Below are positions 4,845-14,897 of a DNA stretch of 64,000 bases, piece by piece (the first letter of the stretch is position 1; each line of letters opens with the position of its first letter). Location: NCBI GenBank assembly GCA_002698995.1, contig PAAX01000010.1, positions 1-64,000 on the forward strand, read 5' to 3'. The position numbers were made by a program, and so were the translations under genes. Source of the DNA: Ignavibacteriota bacterium. Its GTDB lineage: Bacteria > Bacteroidota > Ignavibacteria > Ignavibacteriales > Melioribacteraceae. The notes under the pieces were generated by a model, which was not told the DNA's origin, did not search any database, and saw only the letters and a list, made by a program, of their open reading frames with translations.

Positions 4845-6227
4845 TTATTTTGCAAGTATCATTTTTTTAACTTGATAATAACCGTCTGTATTTATTGAAT
4901 AAAAATAAATTCCGCTTGGTAAATCGGAAGCATCAAATTTTATTTCGTAAGAACCAGGTTCTTTAGTTTCATTCACTAAAATTGATATTTCATTACCCAG
5001 TATGTCGTAAACCTTTAGAATTACAAACTTAGATACTGGAAGAGAATATTTAATATTTGTGTAAGGATTGAAAGGATTGGGATAATTCTGATTAAGTTCA
5101 AAAACAAATCGATTTTCTTTATTTACTTTTACTGTGTTGTTATTGAATGCTTTTATGGAATTAAGAACTTCTCCCTTAAAATCAAATAAAGCTAAGTTTT
5201 CCCAAGAAGAACCAAATGACTGTGTTGAAATCCATGCGGGCTCCCAATAAACTAAACCAAGCAGCTTATTATTTTGGTTAGTAGTAATTTTTAATAATTC
5301 CGCAATAAATCTTTTCTGTCCTTCAACCGATGCCGGATAACCATTTAAAAGTTGATCACTATTTCCTATAATATTTTGTGTGTTATCATTCCAGTTTAAC
5401 GTCCATGGATAAGCAGTTTCAGCTATAATAATTTCCTTATCATAGCGAAGTGATAAATCATTTATATTGTACTTTAAATCATCAAGAGAACCGTGCCACC
5501 AAGGATAGTATGATAACCCAATAATATCATAACTAATTTCAGTTTTATTAAGATTATCTAAAAACCAGCGGCAGATTTCATTATTTCCCCCATTATCAAT
5601 GTGAAGCATTATCTTGACAGAATCTTCATTTGTTAAACTCTCGTTAACTCCTCTTATTCCTTCTTTAATTAAATCAGAAAATTTATTCCATTGTTCCTCA
5701 TTATTAAATGTATCGCAAATCTTTCCATCATCCCATAAAAATCCGCATGTAATTTCGTTTCCAATCTGTATTATTTCCGGTATTGTATTTTGCTGTTTAA
5801 GTGAGCCGACAACAAACTTTGTGTATAAGTAAACAGAATCCTTCAGTTCATTAAAAGTCAATTCTTTCCATTTATTTGGTTTTACTTGCTGAGAAGGATC
5901 AGCCCAAGAATCAGAATAGTGAAAATCCAAAATAAAGTTTAGTCCCATATTTTTAATTCTTTGTGCAAATATTAAAGTCTTGCTAAAATTGTTATAGCCT
6001 GATTGAGGATTGTGCCAAAGTCTTAATCGAACAGTATTAATTCCATTTTCCTTAAAAATTTTAAGCGGATCTTTTTCGATTCCATTCTGATAAAATTTTC
6101 CGTTATTATCTTCAATTTGCTGTAGAGAAGAAATATCAATTCCTTTTATAATATTATTATATTCCTGAGCATTTAATATTGATGCTAAGATTAGAAGTGA
6201 AAGTAAATACTTAATCAAAAAAGTCAT
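4845..6227 (-). CDS. Secreted GH53 endo-beta-1,4-galactanase with T9SS tail
   Basis: This glycoside hydrolase family 53 enzyme is expected to cut beta-1,4-galactan side chains of pectin. After a signal peptide (about residues 1-20) the barrel opens with KGIDISSLQQIED. The family's acid/base glutamate is E158 in IQIGNEIT and the nucleophile is E270 in IIIAETAYPW. From about residue 372 a T9SS sorting domain follows: NQNYPNPFNP, a beta-sandwich, and the terminal VKKMILAK. The product should therefore be exported by type IX secretion and then released or anchored at the surface. It is divergent from the POT transporter gene, with a 106-base shared upstream region. No other glycan-degrading gene is nearby, so this is not a polysaccharide utilisation locus. 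Confidence 0.9.
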   Translation of the reverse strand: MTFLIKYLLSLLILASILNAQEYNNIIKGIDISSLQQIEDNNGKFYQNGIEKDPLKIFKENGINTVRLRLWHNPQSGYNNFSKTLIFAQRIKNMGLNFILDFHYSDSWADPSQQVKPNKWKELTFNELKDSVYLYTKFVVGSLKQQNTIPEIIQIGNEITCGFLWDDGKICDTFNNEEQWNKFSDLIKEGIRGVNESLTNEDSVKIMLHIDNGGNNEICRWFLDNLNKTEISYDIIGLSYYPWWHGSLDDLKYNINDLSLRYDKEIIIAETAYPWTLNWNDNTQNIIGNSDQLLNGYPASVEGQKRFIAELLKITTNQNNKLLGLVYWEPAWISTQSFGSSWENLALFDFKGEVLNSIKAFNNNTVKVNKENRFVFELNQNYPNPFNPYTNIKYSLPVSKFVILKVYDILGNEISILVNETKEPGSYEIKFDASDLPSGIYFYSINTDGYYQVKKMILAK

Positions 6228-7764: not shown

Positions 7765-7835
7765 TTTGATTTATACAGAATTTGGGATTATATTAATTTT
7801 AATACTTTTAGAAAATGAAATGATATATAATCATT

Positions 7836-10127
7836 TTACTTAATAAGCATCATTTTACGAACCTGATTAAAACTTCCCGCTTGAATTTTATAGATGTACA
7901 ATCCCGATGCAAGATCAGCCTTGCCCTTGGAAAGATTGGATGCATTAAATGCAACTTTATATGTTCCTGCTGATTTTTGCTCGTTCACTAATGAAGCAAC
8001 TTCGTTACCAAGAATGTCAAATACTTTTAACGTTACATACTCATTATTAGGCACTGAATATTCTATAATTGTACTGGGATTAAAAGGATTAGGATAATTC
8101 TGTTGTAGTCCAAAATTAATCGGTTTAACTTGATCTTCAAGACCAGTAGTCGTTTCAACATGAACATACCATATCTCTTCTTTGGTATTAACCGAATTTG
8201 ATATTTTAACTAAAACTGTATCAACCCGAGGTGCAGGAAATAAAATAAATGATTTATAGTTATATGTCGAATCAGTGCTAACTTGTATATTATTCTTAAA
8301 CCAAGTGTATGAAATATTATAGCCTGTAGTATCTTTTGCATCAACTCTAAAATCTACTGAACCACTTTTGCTTATAGTTGTATCTTGGTTCATAGGATAC
8401 TTTTCAATTACAACAGGAATACCAGGCTGAATTTTAACTTCAACATAATCTTCTCTAACAAGTTTATCAGATATAGAATTACTAAACAAAGTAAGAGTAA
8501 CAGTATGCTTTCCGACTTGATTGAAAGTCCATTTCGGATTTTGTTCTTCGGAATCAGTAATTCCATCATTATTAAAATCCCATTCCCATTTAGTAATTTG
8601 ATTATTTATGCCTACGATTGAAAGATCTGTAAACTGAACTTCAACTGAACCGAATCCTTCAATTACATCTCCCTTGAAATTTGATTTTAAAAAATCGTTC
8701 GGAATTTCTTCAACAATATCATAAGTCTTATTGACTGAAATGTTCTCGAGAGTTTCTTTCTGACCTGATGGAAATTCAATAACCGCTTGAGAAATAACTG
8801 ATGCATCTGCCAAACCAAAATGAACTTCATAACTATTATGACTATTGAAACTATTTTGAGAATTAATTTCTCTTATCTGCCAGGTTTCCTTTCCGTTTAT
8901 AACTGCTTTTATTTTTACTTTTGAACCTATTGCAGATTTATTAGAAATTGTTCCTTCTAAATTAAATTTTACCCACGAATTATTATTATCAAGGTCATTT
9001 CTATAAAGTCCTCTTACTGAACTTGCCCCGGCAATAAAAACATCTAAATCGCCATCATTATCAATATCTGCTGATATTGCTCCTCTTCCGGCTCCATTAG
9101 AAGTTATAGAATTGCTTTTTTGAGAAAAGCTTCCGTCACCGTTATTTTGATAATAATACGTTTTATTTTCTGATGTTACTATTACATCAATATAACTATC
9201 GTTATCAAAATCACCCCAAGTATTTGCTAAATTATTTCCATCAATTGTTAGAGAGTTCTGGACGCTTTCATAAGTTCCATTATTATTCACATAAAACCTA
9301 TCCGGCGCCCCACCATAGTTAGTTAAGAAAATATCGAAATCCATATCGTTGTCAAAATCAATAAAATTATAAGTCTGACCATCCTGTAAATCAGAACCAA
9401 TTGGATCATCATCAATACGAATAAAATCAACAGAACCAGATTCAACAAGCATATTTCTGTAATTATAGTCGCGGGCAGCAGTACCGGCGGGACCGCTTCC
9501 AATAAACAGATCCAAATCACCATCTAAATCATAATCCGTCCAAGTTGGAATAGTATAAGCGGCTAATTCTTTATTGAATTCATAGTCTTCAATTTTTGTA
9601 AATCTTCCGTCTCCATTATTTTTGAACAGAAAGCAAGGCTGAGCAAGTGTCAAAAATCCTTTGGGATTAGTTATAATTAAATCAACAAAACCGTCATTAT
9701 CGTAATCTCCCCATGCAGCTGCCCAACCATAATTTTTGTTATCTAAAGAAACCGGCGAATCTGCAGATAAAGACAAAGCATTATTTTCATTATAATAAAT
9801 TGCTGATGGTGAACCGGCTAATGCTAAATCCATATCTCCATCATTATCTATATCGGCAAAGCTAACACCATTTGATATTCCACCGGACTGCTGATCAATA
9901 TCTTTTTCCTCTAAAGTGAAATTCCCGTTTCCATCATTTATAAAAAAGAATCTTAGTGATGAATAAATATCCTGATCACCGTCACCGTCAATATCTACAA
10001 ATGCTGATCCGGAATAATTTGTTGGAAGATTTGCTTGATTTACAACATTGCTTAAATCCTTCACAAAATTTTGTGAGTAAAGTGTTAATGTAAAAACAAA
10101 TAATAGAGCTTTATTGAGATGTTTCAT
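7836..10127 (-). CDS. Secreted FG-GAP/UnbV/PKD repeat protein with T9SS tail
   Basis: This 763-residue cell-surface or secreted protein has, in order, a signal peptide (MKHLNKALLFVFTLTLYSQ), about seven FG-GAP/VCBS repeats between residues 45 and 375 with calcium-type loops (DIDGDGDQD, DIDNDGDMD, DYDNDGFVD, DYDLDGDLD and others), and an ASPIC/UnbV domain (about 395-470, with REINSQNSF and VHFGLADAS). A PKD domain (about 490-565, KWEWDFNNDG), an Ig-like region and a T9SS sorting tail (NYPNPFNPSTIIEYS to the end) follow. No enzyme is evident; such proteins are thought to be adhesins or polymer binders. The ATG has the site AAAAGGGGGAAATA. It follows the response regulator and sensor kinase genes on the same strand but has its own upstream inverted-repeat site at 10186-10203. 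The sorting tail contains a six-codon insertion (see findings). Confidence 0.85.
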   Translation of the reverse strand: MKHLNKALLFVFTLTLYSQNFVKDLSNVVNQANLPTNYSGSAFVDIDGDGDQDIYSSLRFFFINDGNGNFTLEEKDIDQQSGGISNGVSFADIDNDGDMDLALAGSPSAIYYNENNALSLSADSPVSLDNKNYGWAAAWGDYDNDGFVDLIITNPKGFLTLAQPCFLFKNNGDGRFTKIEDYEFNKELAAYTIPTWTDYDLDGDLDLFIGSGPAGTAARDYNYRNMLVESGSVDFIRIDDDPIGSDLQDGQTYNFIDFDNDMDFDIFLTNYGGAPDRFYVNNNGTYESVQNSLTIDGNNLANTWGDFDNDSYIDVIVTSENKTYYYQNNGDGSFSQKSNSITSNGAGRGAISADIDNDGDLDVFIAGASSVRGLYRNDLDNNNSWVKFNLEGTISNKSAIGSKVKIKAVINGKETWQIREINSQNSFNSHNSYEVHFGLADASVISQAVIEFPSGQKETLENISVNKTYDIVEEIPNDFLKSNFKGDVIEGFGSVEVQFTDLSIVGINNQITKWEWDFNNDGITDSEEQNPKWTFNQVGKHTVTLTLFSNSISDKLVREDYVEVKIQPGIPVVIEKYPMNQDTTISKSGSVDFRVDAKDTTGYNISYTWFKNNIQVSTDSTYNYKSFILFPAPRVDTVLVKISNSVNTKEEIWYVHVETTTGLEDQVKPINFGLQQNYPNPFNPSTIIEYSVPNNEYVTLKVFDILGNEVASLVNEQKSAGTYKVAFNASNLSKGKADLASGLYIYKIQAGSFNQVRKMMLIK

Positions 10128-10185
10128 TATTTCCCCCTTTTGTTAATGAACACTGCAATAGTACTTATAAAATAAAGGGAGAACC

Positions 10186-10203
10186 ATAACCCAAAAGGGT
10201 CAA
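10186..10203. promoter_or_regulatory. Candidate operator ACCC-N4-GGGT upstream of UnbV gene
   Basis: ATAACCCAAAAGGGTCAA is an inverted repeat with half-sites TAACCC and GGGTCA, 58 bases before the UnbV start. It differs by one spacer base from the copy at 13930-13947 upstream of the sensor kinase. The response regulator encoded between them is the obvious candidate binder; that is inference. Confidence 0.5.
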
Positions 10204-10206
10204 TTA

Positions 10207-10824
10207 TTAAACTAATCTTTCTTTTATAGCTTTTGCAACTGCTTCTGATTTTGAATGGACTTCAAGTTTTCGATAAATGCTTTTGATATGTCTTCTTACA
10301 GTTTCTTCACTAATAAATAATGCTTCTGCAATTACTTTGTAACTGGAACCTTTAACTAATTCGTTTAATACTTCAAATTCTCGCGGAGTAAGCTCAGGTG
10401 GAGGTTGAATTTTAAATGAACCAACAACCATTCTTGCTATTTGAGAGCTCATTGGAGCACCGCCGTCATAAGCTTCTTTAATTGCATCTAAAATTCTTGT
10501 TGGTGATGAATCCTTTGTAAGATAACCTGTCGCACCCGCGCAGAGTGCATCAAAAACATATTGATCATTCTCATGAATTGATAAAACAAGAATATCTAAC
10601 GAAGAGTATTTTTTTTTGATAAGTTTTATACATTCTATACCATTTACTTCAGGCAGACCAATATCCATCAATACAATATCCGGAATTTCATTATCAAAAT
10701 ATTTTAATGATTCTTTACAATTTGGGAAGGTAGCAATACAGGAAAAACCGGGAGTTCCGTTAATTAATAAACTTAAATTTTCTCTTATTTCATCATCATC
10801 TTCTACAATCGCAACTGAAATCAT
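10207..10824 (-). CDS. NarL/LuxR-type response regulator
   Basis: This is a two-domain cytoplasmic transcription factor of 205 residues. The receiver domain has the acidic pocket VEDDDE (residues 7-12), phospho-acceptor D54 in VLMDIG and K104 in YLTKDSS. The LuxR-type helix-turn-helix spans about 144-200 (LTPREFEVLNELVKG, then SEETVRRHIKSIYRKL). It lies 64 bases downstream of the propeller sensor kinase on the same strand, so the two form a cognate pair. HisKA_3 kinases characteristically pair with NarL-type regulators, which fits. Its likely targets are the paired inverted repeats upstream of the kinase and the UnbV protein. Confidence 0.92.
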   Translation of the reverse strand: MISVAIVEDDDEIRENLSLLINGTPGFSCIATFPNCKESLKYFDNEIPDIVLMDIGLPEVNGIECIKLIKKKYSSLDILVLSIHENDQYVFDALCAGATGYLTKDSSPTRILDAIKEAYDGGAPMSSQIARMVVGSFKIQPPPELTPREFEVLNELVKGSSYKVIAEALFISEETVRRHIKSIYRKLEVHSKSEAVAKAIKERLV

Positions 10825-10888
10825 AAATTGCTGACCGAATTTTTATTGATTGCATGAAGTTAATAAACAAACAATAAAAGTAAAAATT

Positions 10889-13879
10889 CTAATTTAAGCT
10901 TGCCTCGAAATAAATTTTAGTCCCTTTTTTAAGCGATGAATCAACAACTAATTTTCCGTTTATTATATTTGCTCTATTATTCATGCTCTTTAATCCTCTG
11001 CCAAAATTAAATTTATTCTCTTCAATTCCAATCCCATCGTCTTCAAGCTCAATAGAAATTCGATTCTCTACAAAATTAAATTTCAAGCTGACATTCTGTG
11101 AGCCGGAATATTTTAGCGAATTGTTCATTGCCTCTTTGAAAATAAAAATCATATTTCTTTTGTAGTCCATAGGTATATGTATTTTTTCAAAATTTTGGTT
11201 AATTCCATTTACTCGAAAATTAATGCCGGTTTTACTAAAAAACTCCTCTCCAAAATCCTTTATTCTTAGTGCCACATCGTAATAAGAATCTTTGTTTGGA
11301 TCTAATGTCCATATAAAATCTTTTACTCCAAAACTTAATGACGACGATAATTCGGAAATCTTCTTTAAATAATCCTTTGTTCCGGATTCCTGTTCAATTG
11401 AGGCTCTTTTTAATAATTCACTATAAAGAGAAATTTTTGTTATTCTATGACCAAGTTCATCATGAAAATCATCAGCAGCTTTTTTTCTTAACTTTTTTTC
11501 CTCTTCTTCTCTAATTTTTTGTATAAGTAATAGTCTTTTAATTTTTCTTTTATGATAAAGAATAAATGATAGAATTAGTAAGATAACTGCCAATAATGAT
11601 ATTAAAATTAGAAACCAAATTGTTTCCCAAAACGGTGGACTAATAATCAACTTCACTGCTTTTTCTCTATCGTTCCACATTCCATTATAATCAGTAGAAC
11701 TCATTATTATATTGTATTCACCGGGCGAAAGGTCAATTAAGTCAATTTGGCTGTTGAATCCTAAATAAATCCAATTAGTGTCAATTTCCGGAATTTTATA
11801 TCTATACTTTATTGCTTGAGGATAATTATAATCTAGAAGTGCAAAGCTGATTCTAATTTGGGAATCGTGATAATCAGCATAGTAAGAATTATTATTTTCT
11901 TCAGCTTGAATAAACCTGCCGTTTGAGTATTTCTCCACATTTGAAATTTCAATCGGAGAAGTTATTCCTTTAAAATTAGTAACGGAGAAGGAAGTATAAC
12001 CGTCAATCCCCCCAAATATCAGGCTCCCTTCACTTCTCCTAAAGTAAGAACCTGGAACAAACATATTGCTGTGCAATCCGCTATTAACATCATAATTTGT
12101 TATTATGTTTGTCCCTAAATCCAAAGAGCTTATTCCTTTTGAAGTACTTAAAAAGAGTTTATTATTACTTTGTAAAATTCCATTTATAACTGTATTACTA
12201 AGCCCGCTGCTTTCATCATAAAGAATGATTTCCCCGGTTTTTTTGTCAATCTTATTTAATCCGCCACCGGTTCCTAACCAAAAATTATCTTCATCTTCAT
12301 AAAATGAAAACATATAATTATTAGAAATAGAATTACTGTCAGTAATAGTTTTTTTTAGATAAGTAATTTTATCATCACTATTAATTTTGGTAATACCTTC
12401 ATAAGAACCAATCCAGATAGTCCCTTCGCTGTCTTCAAATAATGAAAGAACATAATCTCCAAGAATTTTATTTTTATATTTCTCATTAATATTTACAAAA
12501 TCATTTTTAGATTTATCAAAAAGAAAGACTCCATAATAATTACCAATCCACAACCTTTCCTTGCTATCTAAAAGTACTTTAAGAATATGATCATCTGTTA
12601 GACTAGAATTAGATTTACTAAATCGTTTAATTATGTTAAAAACTTTATCAGTTATTAAAAGCCCTTTATCAGTCCCGATAAAATATTGCTCACCATTTGT
12701 AAAAATCGAATTGATCGCTATCTCTTCGTTAGATATTAATTCAATTTTAGAAAGAGTGTTTTCTGAATCAGCAGAATATAATCCAGCATTAGTTGCAAGT
12801 ATTAATTGATTTACCTCCTTTTCAACTATTTGATTTACTCGTACAGTTTTATCAAAATTAATTTGTGCGGGAGTAAATATTCGATAATCTTTGTAAAGCT
12901 TTTGAACACCATTATTATAACTTCCAAGCCAAATTACTCCTGAGTTATCTCTACAAATCGAAATTATATTCGATAAATTTATTTTATCTGCTGAAGTATT
13001 TATCTCACTTAGGCTTTTTATAATTTTTTTTCTTATATCAAAAATGAAAAGATTGTTTGTGGAACCGATTAATATTTCCTCATCAGAAATGATCATATCG
13101 TTTACTTGTAAATCGGATTCAAATATTTTTTCATCAACTATTTTATTTTCATTTGAATCAAATGAATAGAGATTTTTATTGGTCCCAATCCATATTTTAT
13201 TTGTTTTATCCTCAACAAAAGATAAGATAGAACTGTTATTTAATTCATCACCTAGATCAACTTTAGTAAATTCATCTTTGGATTCATTAAAACTATAAAC
13301 ACCTCCTCTCGATGTTCCCACAAGAATTTCATTAGCTCTGCTTACAAATATTTTGTTGAGTCTTAATTCGTTGATACTATACGTGTTAATTTTGGTTTTA
13401 GAAATTTTTATAACCCCGGCATTATTTGTAACTACCCAGATGTTTTTCTTTTTATCCTGAGTAATACTCCAAATAATTCCGTCAAATGTTTCATTAACAT
13501 TTAGATCGCTGTTTGAAAATCTTATAAATTTATTTTGAGAAGGAATATATTTGTTTAATCCACCACCATAAGTTCCTATCCAAAAATTCCCTTCTGAATC
13601 TTCAAAAACTGCAGTTATATCATCATTAGAAAGTGAATTAATGTCGTTTGGGTTATAACGAAAGGTTTTATAACGAACTCCGTCATATTTTACTAAACCA
13701 AACATAGAGCCAAACCAAATAAATCCTTTGCTGTCTTGGTAAATTCGAAATACAGAATTATGAGTAATCCCCTCTTCAAATGAAATCTGTTCAGCCTTCA
13801 TTCTTGAAATCTGATTGCTTAATGATTCTGCCTTAATAAGAGAAAGTGAAGCAAAAATAATTACAACAAGTGTTTTCAT
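10889..13879 (-). CDS. Propeller-type sensor histidine kinase (Reg_prop/Y_Y_Y/HisKA_3)
   Basis: A 996-residue membrane sensor. A signal peptide (1-18) precedes a periplasmic region with repeated Reg_prop blades (DSKGFIWFGSMFGLVKYD, DSEGNFWIGTYGGGLNKY and others) that should form two seven-bladed propellers up to about residue 640. A Y_Y_Y domain (about 690-755) and one transmembrane helix (about 758-785) follow. In the cytoplasm there is a HisKA_3 domain with phospho-acceptor H806 in FHDELGH and an ATPase domain with N-box EAMNNSLKYS and DDGIGI. It has no fused receiver or AraC domain, unlike the hybrid kinases of Bacteroides; the separate regulator is next door. The ATG has the site TTTAGGAAAT. 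The ligand is unknown. Confidence 0.92.
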   Translation of the reverse strand: MKTLVVIIFASLSLIKAESLSNQISRMKAEQISFEEGITHNSVFRIYQDSKGFIWFGSMFGLVKYDGVRYKTFRYNPNDINSLSNDDITAVFEDSEGNFWIGTYGGGLNKYIPSQNKFIRFSNSDLNVNETFDGIIWSITQDKKKNIWVVTNNAGVIKISKTKINTYSINELRLNKIFVSRANEILVGTSRGGVYSFNESKDEFTKVDLGDELNNSSILSFVEDKTNKIWIGTNKNLYSFDSNENKIVDEKIFESDLQVNDMIISDEEILIGSTNNLFIFDIRKKIIKSLSEINTSADKINLSNIISICRDNSGVIWLGSYNNGVQKLYKDYRIFTPAQINFDKTVRVNQIVEKEVNQLILATNAGLYSADSENTLSKIELISNEEIAINSIFTNGEQYFIGTDKGLLITDKVFNIIKRFSKSNSSLTDDHILKVLLDSKERLWIGNYYGVFLFDKSKNDFVNINEKYKNKILGDYVLSLFEDSEGTIWIGSYEGITKINSDDKITYLKKTITDSNSISNNYMFSFYEDEDNFWLGTGGGLNKIDKKTGEIILYDESSGLSNTVINGILQSNNKLFLSTSKGISSLDLGTNIITNYDVNSGLHSNMFVPGSYFRRSEGSLIFGGIDGYTSFSVTNFKGITSPIEISNVEKYSNGRFIQAEENNNSYYADYHDSQIRISFALLDYNYPQAIKYRYKIPEIDTNWIYLGFNSQIDLIDLSPGEYNIIMSSTDYNGMWNDREKAVKLIISPPFWETIWFLILISLLAVILLILSFILYHKRKIKRLLLIQKIREEEEKKLRKKAADDFHDELGHRITKISLYSELLKRASIEQESGTKDYLKKISELSSSLSFGVKDFIWTLDPNKDSYYDVALRIKDFGEEFFSKTGINFRVNGINQNFEKIHIPMDYKRNMIFIFKEAMNNSLKYSGSQNVSLKFNFVENRISIELEDDGIGIEENKFNFGRGLKSMNNRANIINGKLVVDSSLKKGTKIYFEASLN

Positions 13880-13929
13880 ATTTCCTAAATCTTTTTTTTA
13901 TAATATAAGATATTTTTCCTAACAAGAAG

Positions 13930-13947
13930 ATAACCCAAACGGGTCAA
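13930..13947. promoter_or_regulatory. Candidate operator ACCC-N4-GGGT upstream of sensor kinase
   Basis: ATAACCCAAACGGGTCAA lies 50 bases upstream of the kinase ATG. It matches 17 of 18 bases of the site at 10186-10203, and the only difference is in the non-palindromic spacer. Matching half-sites, spacing and distance to the start argue for one regulator acting on both genes, probably with autoregulation of the kinase operon. Confidence 0.5.
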
Positions 13948-14216: not shown

Positions 14217-14897
14217 ATGAATTCCGAAAACTTACTTAATAATATTCCTTTGTTTGAAGATATATCCGAAGAAACATTAAACAAGATTGTATCATATGGA
14301 AATAAAATAATGTTTAAAAAGGATTCTACCATTCTTGTTGAATCAGAAGAAGGTACTGCACTTTTTTTTATAATCAAAGGAAAAGTTAAAGTTACACTTC
14401 AAAGTAAAGAAGGAAAGGAAGTAATTCTTTCTTTACTTAAAGAGAATGATTTTTTTGGAGAGATGGCTTTAATTGACGGCACAAATAGAGCTGCTACAAT
14501 TGTTGCATGTGAACCTACAGAATTATTTATAATAAAACGGGATGATTTTCTTAACTTATTAAAAACATATCCCGAAATTTCGATTTCATTACTTCAAGAA
14601 ATTTCAAAGAGATTACGTTTTGCAGATTTAATGATTAAATCTCTTTCATTAAATGATGCCGAAGGAAAAGTTGCCGTTGTTCTAAATCAATATGCGTTTG
14701 ATTATGGAAAAATTAAAAACGGTGTAGTAGAGATTGATAAAGCACCGACCCAGCAAGACATTGCAAAAATGGCCGGTACTTCAAGAGAAACAGTTAACAG
14801 AGTTCTTGGCACTTTTTCAAAAAAAGGGATGATTGAAATTGAAGGTTCAATCATAAGAATAATGAACTATGAGGAATTCACCCAGCTTTACTTATAA
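14217..14897 (+). CDS. Crp/Fnr-family transcriptional regulator
   Basis: This 226-residue regulator has an N-terminal cyclic-nucleotide-binding-type beta-roll (about 10-125, with GEMALIDGTNRAATIVA) and a C-terminal winged helix-turn-helix (about 150-215, with TQQDIAKMAGTSRETVNRVL). No FNR-type cysteine cluster is visible in the N-terminus, so an Fe-S oxygen sensor is unlikely. The GEMALIDGTNRAAT segment retains the glycine and glutamate of the nucleotide pocket. The start has the site CTGAGGTTTAA. It has a long untranslated region with a strong hairpin, and its stop abuts the stop of the convergent GNAT-nitrilase gene. Targets cannot be inferred. Confidence 0.92.
   Translation: MNSENLLNNIPLFEDISEETLNKIVSYGNKIMFKKDSTILVESEEGTALFFIIKGKVKVTLQSKEGKEVILSLLKENDFFGEMALIDGTNRAATIVACEPTELFIIKRDDFLNLLKTYPEISISLLQEISKRLRFADLMIKSLSLNDAEGKVAVVLNQYAFDYGKIKNGVVEIDKAPTQQDIAKMAGTSRETVNRVLGTFSKKGMIEIEGSIIRIMNYEEFTQLYL

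Follow-up and report, generated by a model that had tools for sequence, protein, structure and literature searches.

What binds the two nearly identical inverted repeats on either side of a sensor kinase gene and a response regulator gene in an Ignavibacteriota genome, and what would binding do? The repeats lie in the first 64,000 nucleotides of contig PAAX01000010.1 (assembly GCA_002698995.1), the stretch analysed here and called the window below. On the forward strand they read ATAACCCAAAAGGGTCAA (10186-10203) and ATAACCCAAACGGGTCAA (13930-13947), agreeing at 17 of 18 bases, and in their 16-bp core, TAACCC-N4-GGGTCA, five of six arm pairs match. The first is 58 bp before the start codon of a gene for a secreted UnbV protein (10127, minus strand), and the second is 50 bp before that of the kinase (13879, minus strand). 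The initial annotation had reported the near identity, the symmetry and a position 50-60 bases 5′ of both starts, and a direct reading of the window bears out all three. In our view the NarL-type regulator whose gene lies between the sites probably uses both as operators, and in the predicted circuit it would switch on its own operon and the UnbV/FG-GAP gene.

The two sites and the genes between them

The genes run kinase, regulator, UnbV, all on the minus strand. The sites had been described as framing a unit of all three; they do bracket the kinase and the regulator, but the UnbV gene falls outside the pair, beyond the site at 10186-10203. That site, operator 2 (on the minus strand TTGACCCTTTTGGGTTAT), sits directly 3′ of the regulator stop codon and ahead of the UnbV gene; the other, operator 1 (on the minus strand TTGACCCGTTTGGGTTAT), precedes the kinase gene.

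The regulator (205 aa, 10207-10824, minus strand) combines a receiver (PF00072, 88 bits, cut-off 30.2) with a LuxR/GerE helix-turn-helix domain (PF00196, 68.1 bits, cut-off 23.5), which makes it a NarL/FixJ (LuxR-type) response regulator. Its best match among solved structures is NarL (1a04), and it stays below the cut-offs of the NCBIfam equivalog models for NarL (123.5 bits, cut-off 250) and NarP (110.2 bits, cut-off 343). In its recognition helix, ISEETVRRHIKSIYRKL, R177 and R178 (codons at 10291-10296, minus strand) fall in alignment columns whose residues vary with operator class and are K and V in NarL, the valine being presumably V189. The kinase (996 aa, 10889-13879, minus strand) is a propeller sensor histidine kinase, with Reg_prop repeats, Y_Y_Y and HATPase_c domains above cut-off (PF07494, PF07495, PF02518) and a HisKA_3 match below it (20.6 bits, cut-off 24). 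Its propeller part also matches the type IX secretion protein PorZ, at 91.9 bits and under the cut-off of 260. The UnbV gene (7836-10127, minus strand) encodes a 763-aa secreted FG-GAP/UnbV-ASPIC/PKD protein that ends in a type IX sorting domain (PF18962, 32.1 bits, cut-off 27; TIGR04183, 38.3 bits, cut-off 23).

Exact matches to the core number two in the whole genome of 4,231,110 bases, both at this locus, and no other zero-mismatch match occurs in the window. A relaxed motif, TRACCCN4GGGTYA with up to two mismatches, matches 127 times genome-wide, compared with 186 times for its reversed control. With no general excess of the motif, it is the exact pair that stands out.

Conservation of the operator at orthologous loci

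Orthologous regulators were sought in overlapping sets of genomes, 79 from the family, 391 from the class, and 98 and 123 from the orders of G303 and G388, respectively; the class-wide search scored eight candidates in most of the genomes listed. Eleven loci were found, one of them in the window and the remaining ten with regulators 59-72% identical to it, and we refer to these regulators as group A. The two orders, searched at E 1e-70, held no group-A locus beyond the four already known, and the best identity among the matches listed in a contig scan was 53%, those sequences serving as outgroups only.

The motif was fixed before the orthologues were inspected. Each region tested either spanned the start of the kinase frame, taking in 150 bases on the upstream side and 60 downstream, or extended about 200 bases past the regulator. 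Of 21 such regions around orthologous regulators, 14 contain the motif with up to two mismatches; the window supplies two of these, and leaving it out gives 12 of 19. Over 100 dinucleotide shuffles of these regions the mean was 0.3 and the largest count 2. Among 115 regions of other helix classes, most of them from these or related genomes and with kinase and regulator in the same order, some from other phyla, it occurs once, at a locus whose regulator has an R-A-H helix (L214). The near-copies L075, L090 and L209 were dropped from these region counts. By locus, all 11 carry at least one 16-bp operator at this threshold in a matching place, ahead of the kinase or on either side of the regulator. 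This outcome did not refute the initial reading, against which sites scattered at random or missing upstream of the orthologous genes would have counted. On the genome count and the orthologue comparison together we reject a chance origin of the pair.

Besides the window, six loci (L068, L069, L070, L071, L190 and L192) have the operator before the kinase. The L070 site, which falls outside the 14 of 21, is 80 bases 5′ of the kinase start, and an open frame runs upstream of that start. In both L191 and L193 the interval separating the kinase and regulator genes contains a perfect site, about 100 bases ahead of the latter. Two operators are present at six loci (the window, L068, L069, L190, L191 and L193), and the L073 contig ends before the kinase start. 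Over the 122,638 bases of the orthologue loci, read on the coding strand, ten further matches with up to two mismatches occur, two of them the L191 and L193 sites. At L068 the orthologous kinase of G078 lies in two overlapping frames (7771-8775 and 8589-10898) and is thus frameshifted in that assembly.

These loci also bear on the nearest other candidate binder, a CRP/FNR-type regulator whose divergent gene (14217-14897) begins some 270 bp beyond operator 1. Besides this proximity, the sequence TTGAC can be taken to resemble half of an FNR/DNR-type site. However, tblastn matched the neighbour at none of the ten orthologous loci, all of which keep the operator, and L068-L088 likewise showed no match; at nine of the ten the DNA compared extends 1.0-4.7 kb beyond the kinase start on its upstream side, and that of L073 stops short of this start. 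The half-sites here are 8 bp apart, those of FNR/DNR 4 bp apart, and the consensus TGTGA-N6-TCACA does not fit; the operator also goes with the NarL-type helix class. As the neighbouring gene is not kept at the ten loci, we reject it as the binder and regard its involvement as very improbable.

Promoter geometry and what the sites would do

A TAnnTTTG-like box was scored at 60 offsets from 17 group-A sites. The best offset was exactly 23 bases after the 16-bp operator, with a score of 4.18 against an overall mean of 1.93 (sd 0.46) and a next best of 2.65; there 14 of the sites have the T, 15 the A and 16 the later T, and 14 have TAnnnT as a whole. In the window the corresponding sigma-A-like -7 boxes, both on the minus strand, are TATATTAT (13900-13907) after operator 1 and TACTATTG (10156-10163) after operator 2.

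Class II-type activators have their operators near -41 to -45, and those of the LuxR/FixJ type, such as LuxR, a dyad near -42 that overlaps the -35 region. The operators here are likewise fixed just upstream of a promoter box and resemble those of LuxR in dyad position; the differences are the propeller kinase and a Bacteroidota -7 box instead of -10/-35 elements. For Flavobacterium psychrophilum the -7 box has been placed at -12 to -5 (PMC9723704), which would place the operator centre near -43.5 and the transcription starts near 13895 and 10151. Such a position is activator-like. In E. coli, NarL activates the ogt promoter from -44.5, with a site just upstream of the promoter box and the same activator logic (PMC7419079).

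Under the preferred reading, the membrane-bound propeller kinase would sense a signal outside the cell and phosphorylate the regulator, a dimer of which would bind each 16-18 bp inverted repeat, as the conservation and the match between helix and operator suggest. From about 43 bp before the start it may then help RNA polymerase at the Bacteroidota-type -7 box; the geometry is observed, and activation is what we infer from it. The outcome would be a self-reinforcing sensor operon with one dedicated neighbouring output, the type IX-secreted UnbV/FG-GAP protein. A propeller sensor would fit a surface or polymer-derived ligand, although this is a guess.

The same regulator could instead act as a repressor at these sites, since autorepression is common and the operators lie near the expected position of a -33 element. 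The fixed spacing to the -7 box, though, suits an activator that touches polymerase, where a repressor would tolerate variation, and the NarL precedent is one of activation. We therefore think repression unlikely. Still less credible is a role of the repeats as RNA hairpins, either attenuators or terminators. A short stem with a loop of four bases could form at each site, and operator 2 does follow a stop codon directly. But no run of T comes directly after the sites, they lie upstream of their own predicted starts at a constant distance from the -7 box, and in L191 and L193 a site stands between kinase and regulator. Apart from one tRNA, Rfam gave no match in the window, L072, L073, L080 or L083.

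Outside the locus, eight places in the same genome match the motif with one mismatch; six of them are within reading frames, and TA..T occurs at offset 23 in two of the 16 orientations, both within reading frames. No larger regulon was seen in this genome, where the motif makes no further target visible. Perfect TRACCCN4GGGTYA sites were scanned in 38 genomes, the window's own included. G009 (L043, L047, L049) and G019 (L044, L048) have five, all intergenic and away from a regulator gene. Four of these have TA..T at offset 23 toward the nearby gene and the fifth has it at 22, and none of them had been used for finding the 23-bp spacing. The genes behind these sites encode TonB-dependent receptors, in two cases and with 57% identity between the pair, and other exported proteins. 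Seven perfect sites in seven further genomes have TA..T at 23 in neither direction (L039 has the TA without the T), and all overlap reading frames, the one at L040 falling within the final 50 bases of a frame of 380 codons.

The sites in G009 and G019 speak for an unlinked binder, either another response regulator or a global factor, with or without the local regulator sharing the sites: G009 has three promoter-geometry sites (one off by one) and no detected orthologue, and the two in G019 are remote from its regulator gene. Yet among the 38 genomes such sites occur only in G000, G009 and G019; G000 and G019 have the orthologous regulator, and the G009 assembly is 86% complete. The R-K-H regulator of G009 (L217) was rejected as a binder, as its 3.6-kb locus holds no site with up to two mismatches. 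Since operator class and helix class also go together over several clades, an unlinked binder seems to us improbable.

Recognition helices and their operators

Related regulators with other helices mostly have other operators. For H-F-H and R/K-F-H helices the motif is ACTACC-N6-GGTAGT (the F motif), found with up to two mismatches in 15 of 47 regions (shuffle mean 0.09), the R-F-H count including the same kinase-upstream region twice at loci with tandem regulators; for the R-H-H helix it is ACCGCATA-N2-TATGCGGT, in 4 of 19 regions at that threshold (shuffle mean 0), both motifs having been picked after part of the data had been seen. The F motif also occurs, with up to two mismatches, in three non-F regions, one unclassed, one R-A-H and one R-H-H. 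At held-out R-H-H loci, 29 rows representing 27 distinct loci (L273 equals L285, and L269 equals L286), the R-H-H motif with up to three mismatches was found in 17 rows, against a shuffle mean of 0.02 and a largest count of 1. The group-A motif was found in one of these rows at three mismatches and in none at two. New R-F-H loci had the F motif with up to three mismatches in three of six cases (shuffle mean 0.25), a weak test.

That other helix classes mostly go with other operators links the site to the regulator rather than to a neighbour. Together with the operator at all 11 orthologous loci, this supports the earlier suggestion that the regulator binds both sites.

In a tree of the regulators, group A forms one clade of 11 (support 99/89). 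H-F-H regulators fall in the same larger clade as group A, while the main R-H-H clade has most R-F-H regulators as its sister group; GGTAGT is common to the two F-type clades. Another R-H-H clade (L200, L205, L206 and L209) lies inside the larger clade of group A. Three of its members, near relatives of one another (L205, L206 and L209), have ATCTCATATATATGAGAT before the kinase, which shares the CATA/TATG core; no comparable perfect repeat was found at L200. Half-sites have C at -5 in all classes, T at -8 in group A and C there elsewhere, and A at -4 mainly in the H class, counts drawn from motif-selected sites and so biased toward the motif.

Of eight H-F-H sites, six have TA at the matching offset and four have TAnnnT. 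The box after the downstream site of R-H-H promoters is weakly marked (best 3.0 at offset 21, mean 1.87, sd 0.47), and of 27 rows for these promoters, 18 have a second operator with up to six mismatches, which in 16 of them is 51 or 52 bases away; the loci L083, L202 and L212 are double in this set, and one of the 16 loci is counted twice. Operators and recognition helices of related modules appear to have diverged together at nearly constant promoter geometry. A simple recognition code of the propeller-kinase/NarL-type modules in this bacterial class could lie behind this: the residue after a conserved T-V-x (R, F or H) would set the half-site (TRACCC, CTACC or CGCATA), promoter spacing would stay nearly constant, duplicated modules would be insulated by changes of one or two amino acids together with the operator, and the code would have arisen more than once. 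We regard such a code as possible but not probable. Because the root of the tree is unsure and several helix positions differ between the classes, a one-residue code can be offered only as a hypothesis.

Several observations weigh against the preferred reading of the two sites, the late choice of the two paralogue motifs among them. A sizeable held-out test exists only for the R-H-H motif, and there 12 of the 29 rows lack their own motif at three mismatches, while five contain the F motif at that threshold. In distant Bacteroidota R-F-H regulators (L092, L099) the gene is followed by another perfect repeat, ACTGAAC-N4-GTTCAGT, so that over long distances the operator is not set by helix class alone. 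Within group A, no site with up to two mismatches precedes the kinase in L072, L191 and L193 or follows the regulator in L070, L071 and L192, and TAnnnT at offset 23 is missing from three of the 17 sites, those before the kinase in L068, L069 and L070. G009, as noted, has good sites and no orthologous regulator found. Finally, no UnbV protein follows the regulator in L070-L073, where the L071 contig ends about 600 bases on.

A two-component module that regulates itself and one target next to it is an ordinary kind of circuit, and it is the helix-operator correspondence that sets the system above the ordinary. NarL sites consist of TACYYMT heptamers in a 7-2-7 arrangement, with ACCC arms 6 bp apart compared with 4 bp here. 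The sensor differs from NarX as well, the kinase here having a propeller. In E. coli, NarL is a global, nitrate-responsive regulator (PMC7419079), while the regulon here seems to comprise two promoters. The hybrid two-component systems (HTCS) of Bacteroides have Reg_prop propeller sensor domains and an AraC-type output; in the window, no receiver domain was matched in the kinase, and kinase and NarL/LuxR-type regulator are separate open reading frames. HTCS join kinase and regulator in one chain (PMC11253607), and they resemble the present modules in that the sensor controls genes of surface function, TonB receptors being likely targets in the relatives studied here. A literature search of partial coverage showed nothing on this operator or these modules among the matches listed.

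With this reading, an Ignavibacteria-type stretch becomes a predicted circuit with an exact operator, promoter box and target. The related modules offer a natural series in which helix and operator have seemingly changed together, and how duplicated two-component systems avoid interference at the level of DNA can be tested by swaps of one or two residues. They also suggest that small dedicated sensor units run surface proteins, type IX cargo and TonB receptors, in these bacteria.

The initial annotation had proposed a small dedicated signalling and secretion unit. As stated this is not borne out, for the order kinase, regulator, UnbV of the window is not constant. A UnbV/FG-GAP type IX protein follows the regulator in the window, L068 and L190, and a UnbV-like fragment does so at the contig end of L069. 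L191 and L193 have a TonB-dependent receptor in this place, and L192 has an ice-binding/Ig-like type IX protein, the operator found at that locus being the one before the kinase. No gene of these kinds was seen there in L070-L073.

Two successive regulators stand behind one propeller kinase at L194, L195, L196, L197 and L198. Their helices are R-F-H, except in the second regulator of L195, and F-type operators follow several of them.

At L072 (G019, about 8120-8260) and L073 (G069, 5690-5795), no gene is present for about 400 bases behind the downstream operator and its -7 box. Rfam gave no match for this stretch, and BLAST of the L073 copy against the 79 family genomes returned itself and one 28-base match, the L072 copy being too short for listing. 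At both loci the same short hairpin, AGTGC-CTCCCA-GCACT with its loop rich in C, precedes another GC-rich hairpin unlike the first, and the stretch is a candidate for a small RNA driven by the regulator.

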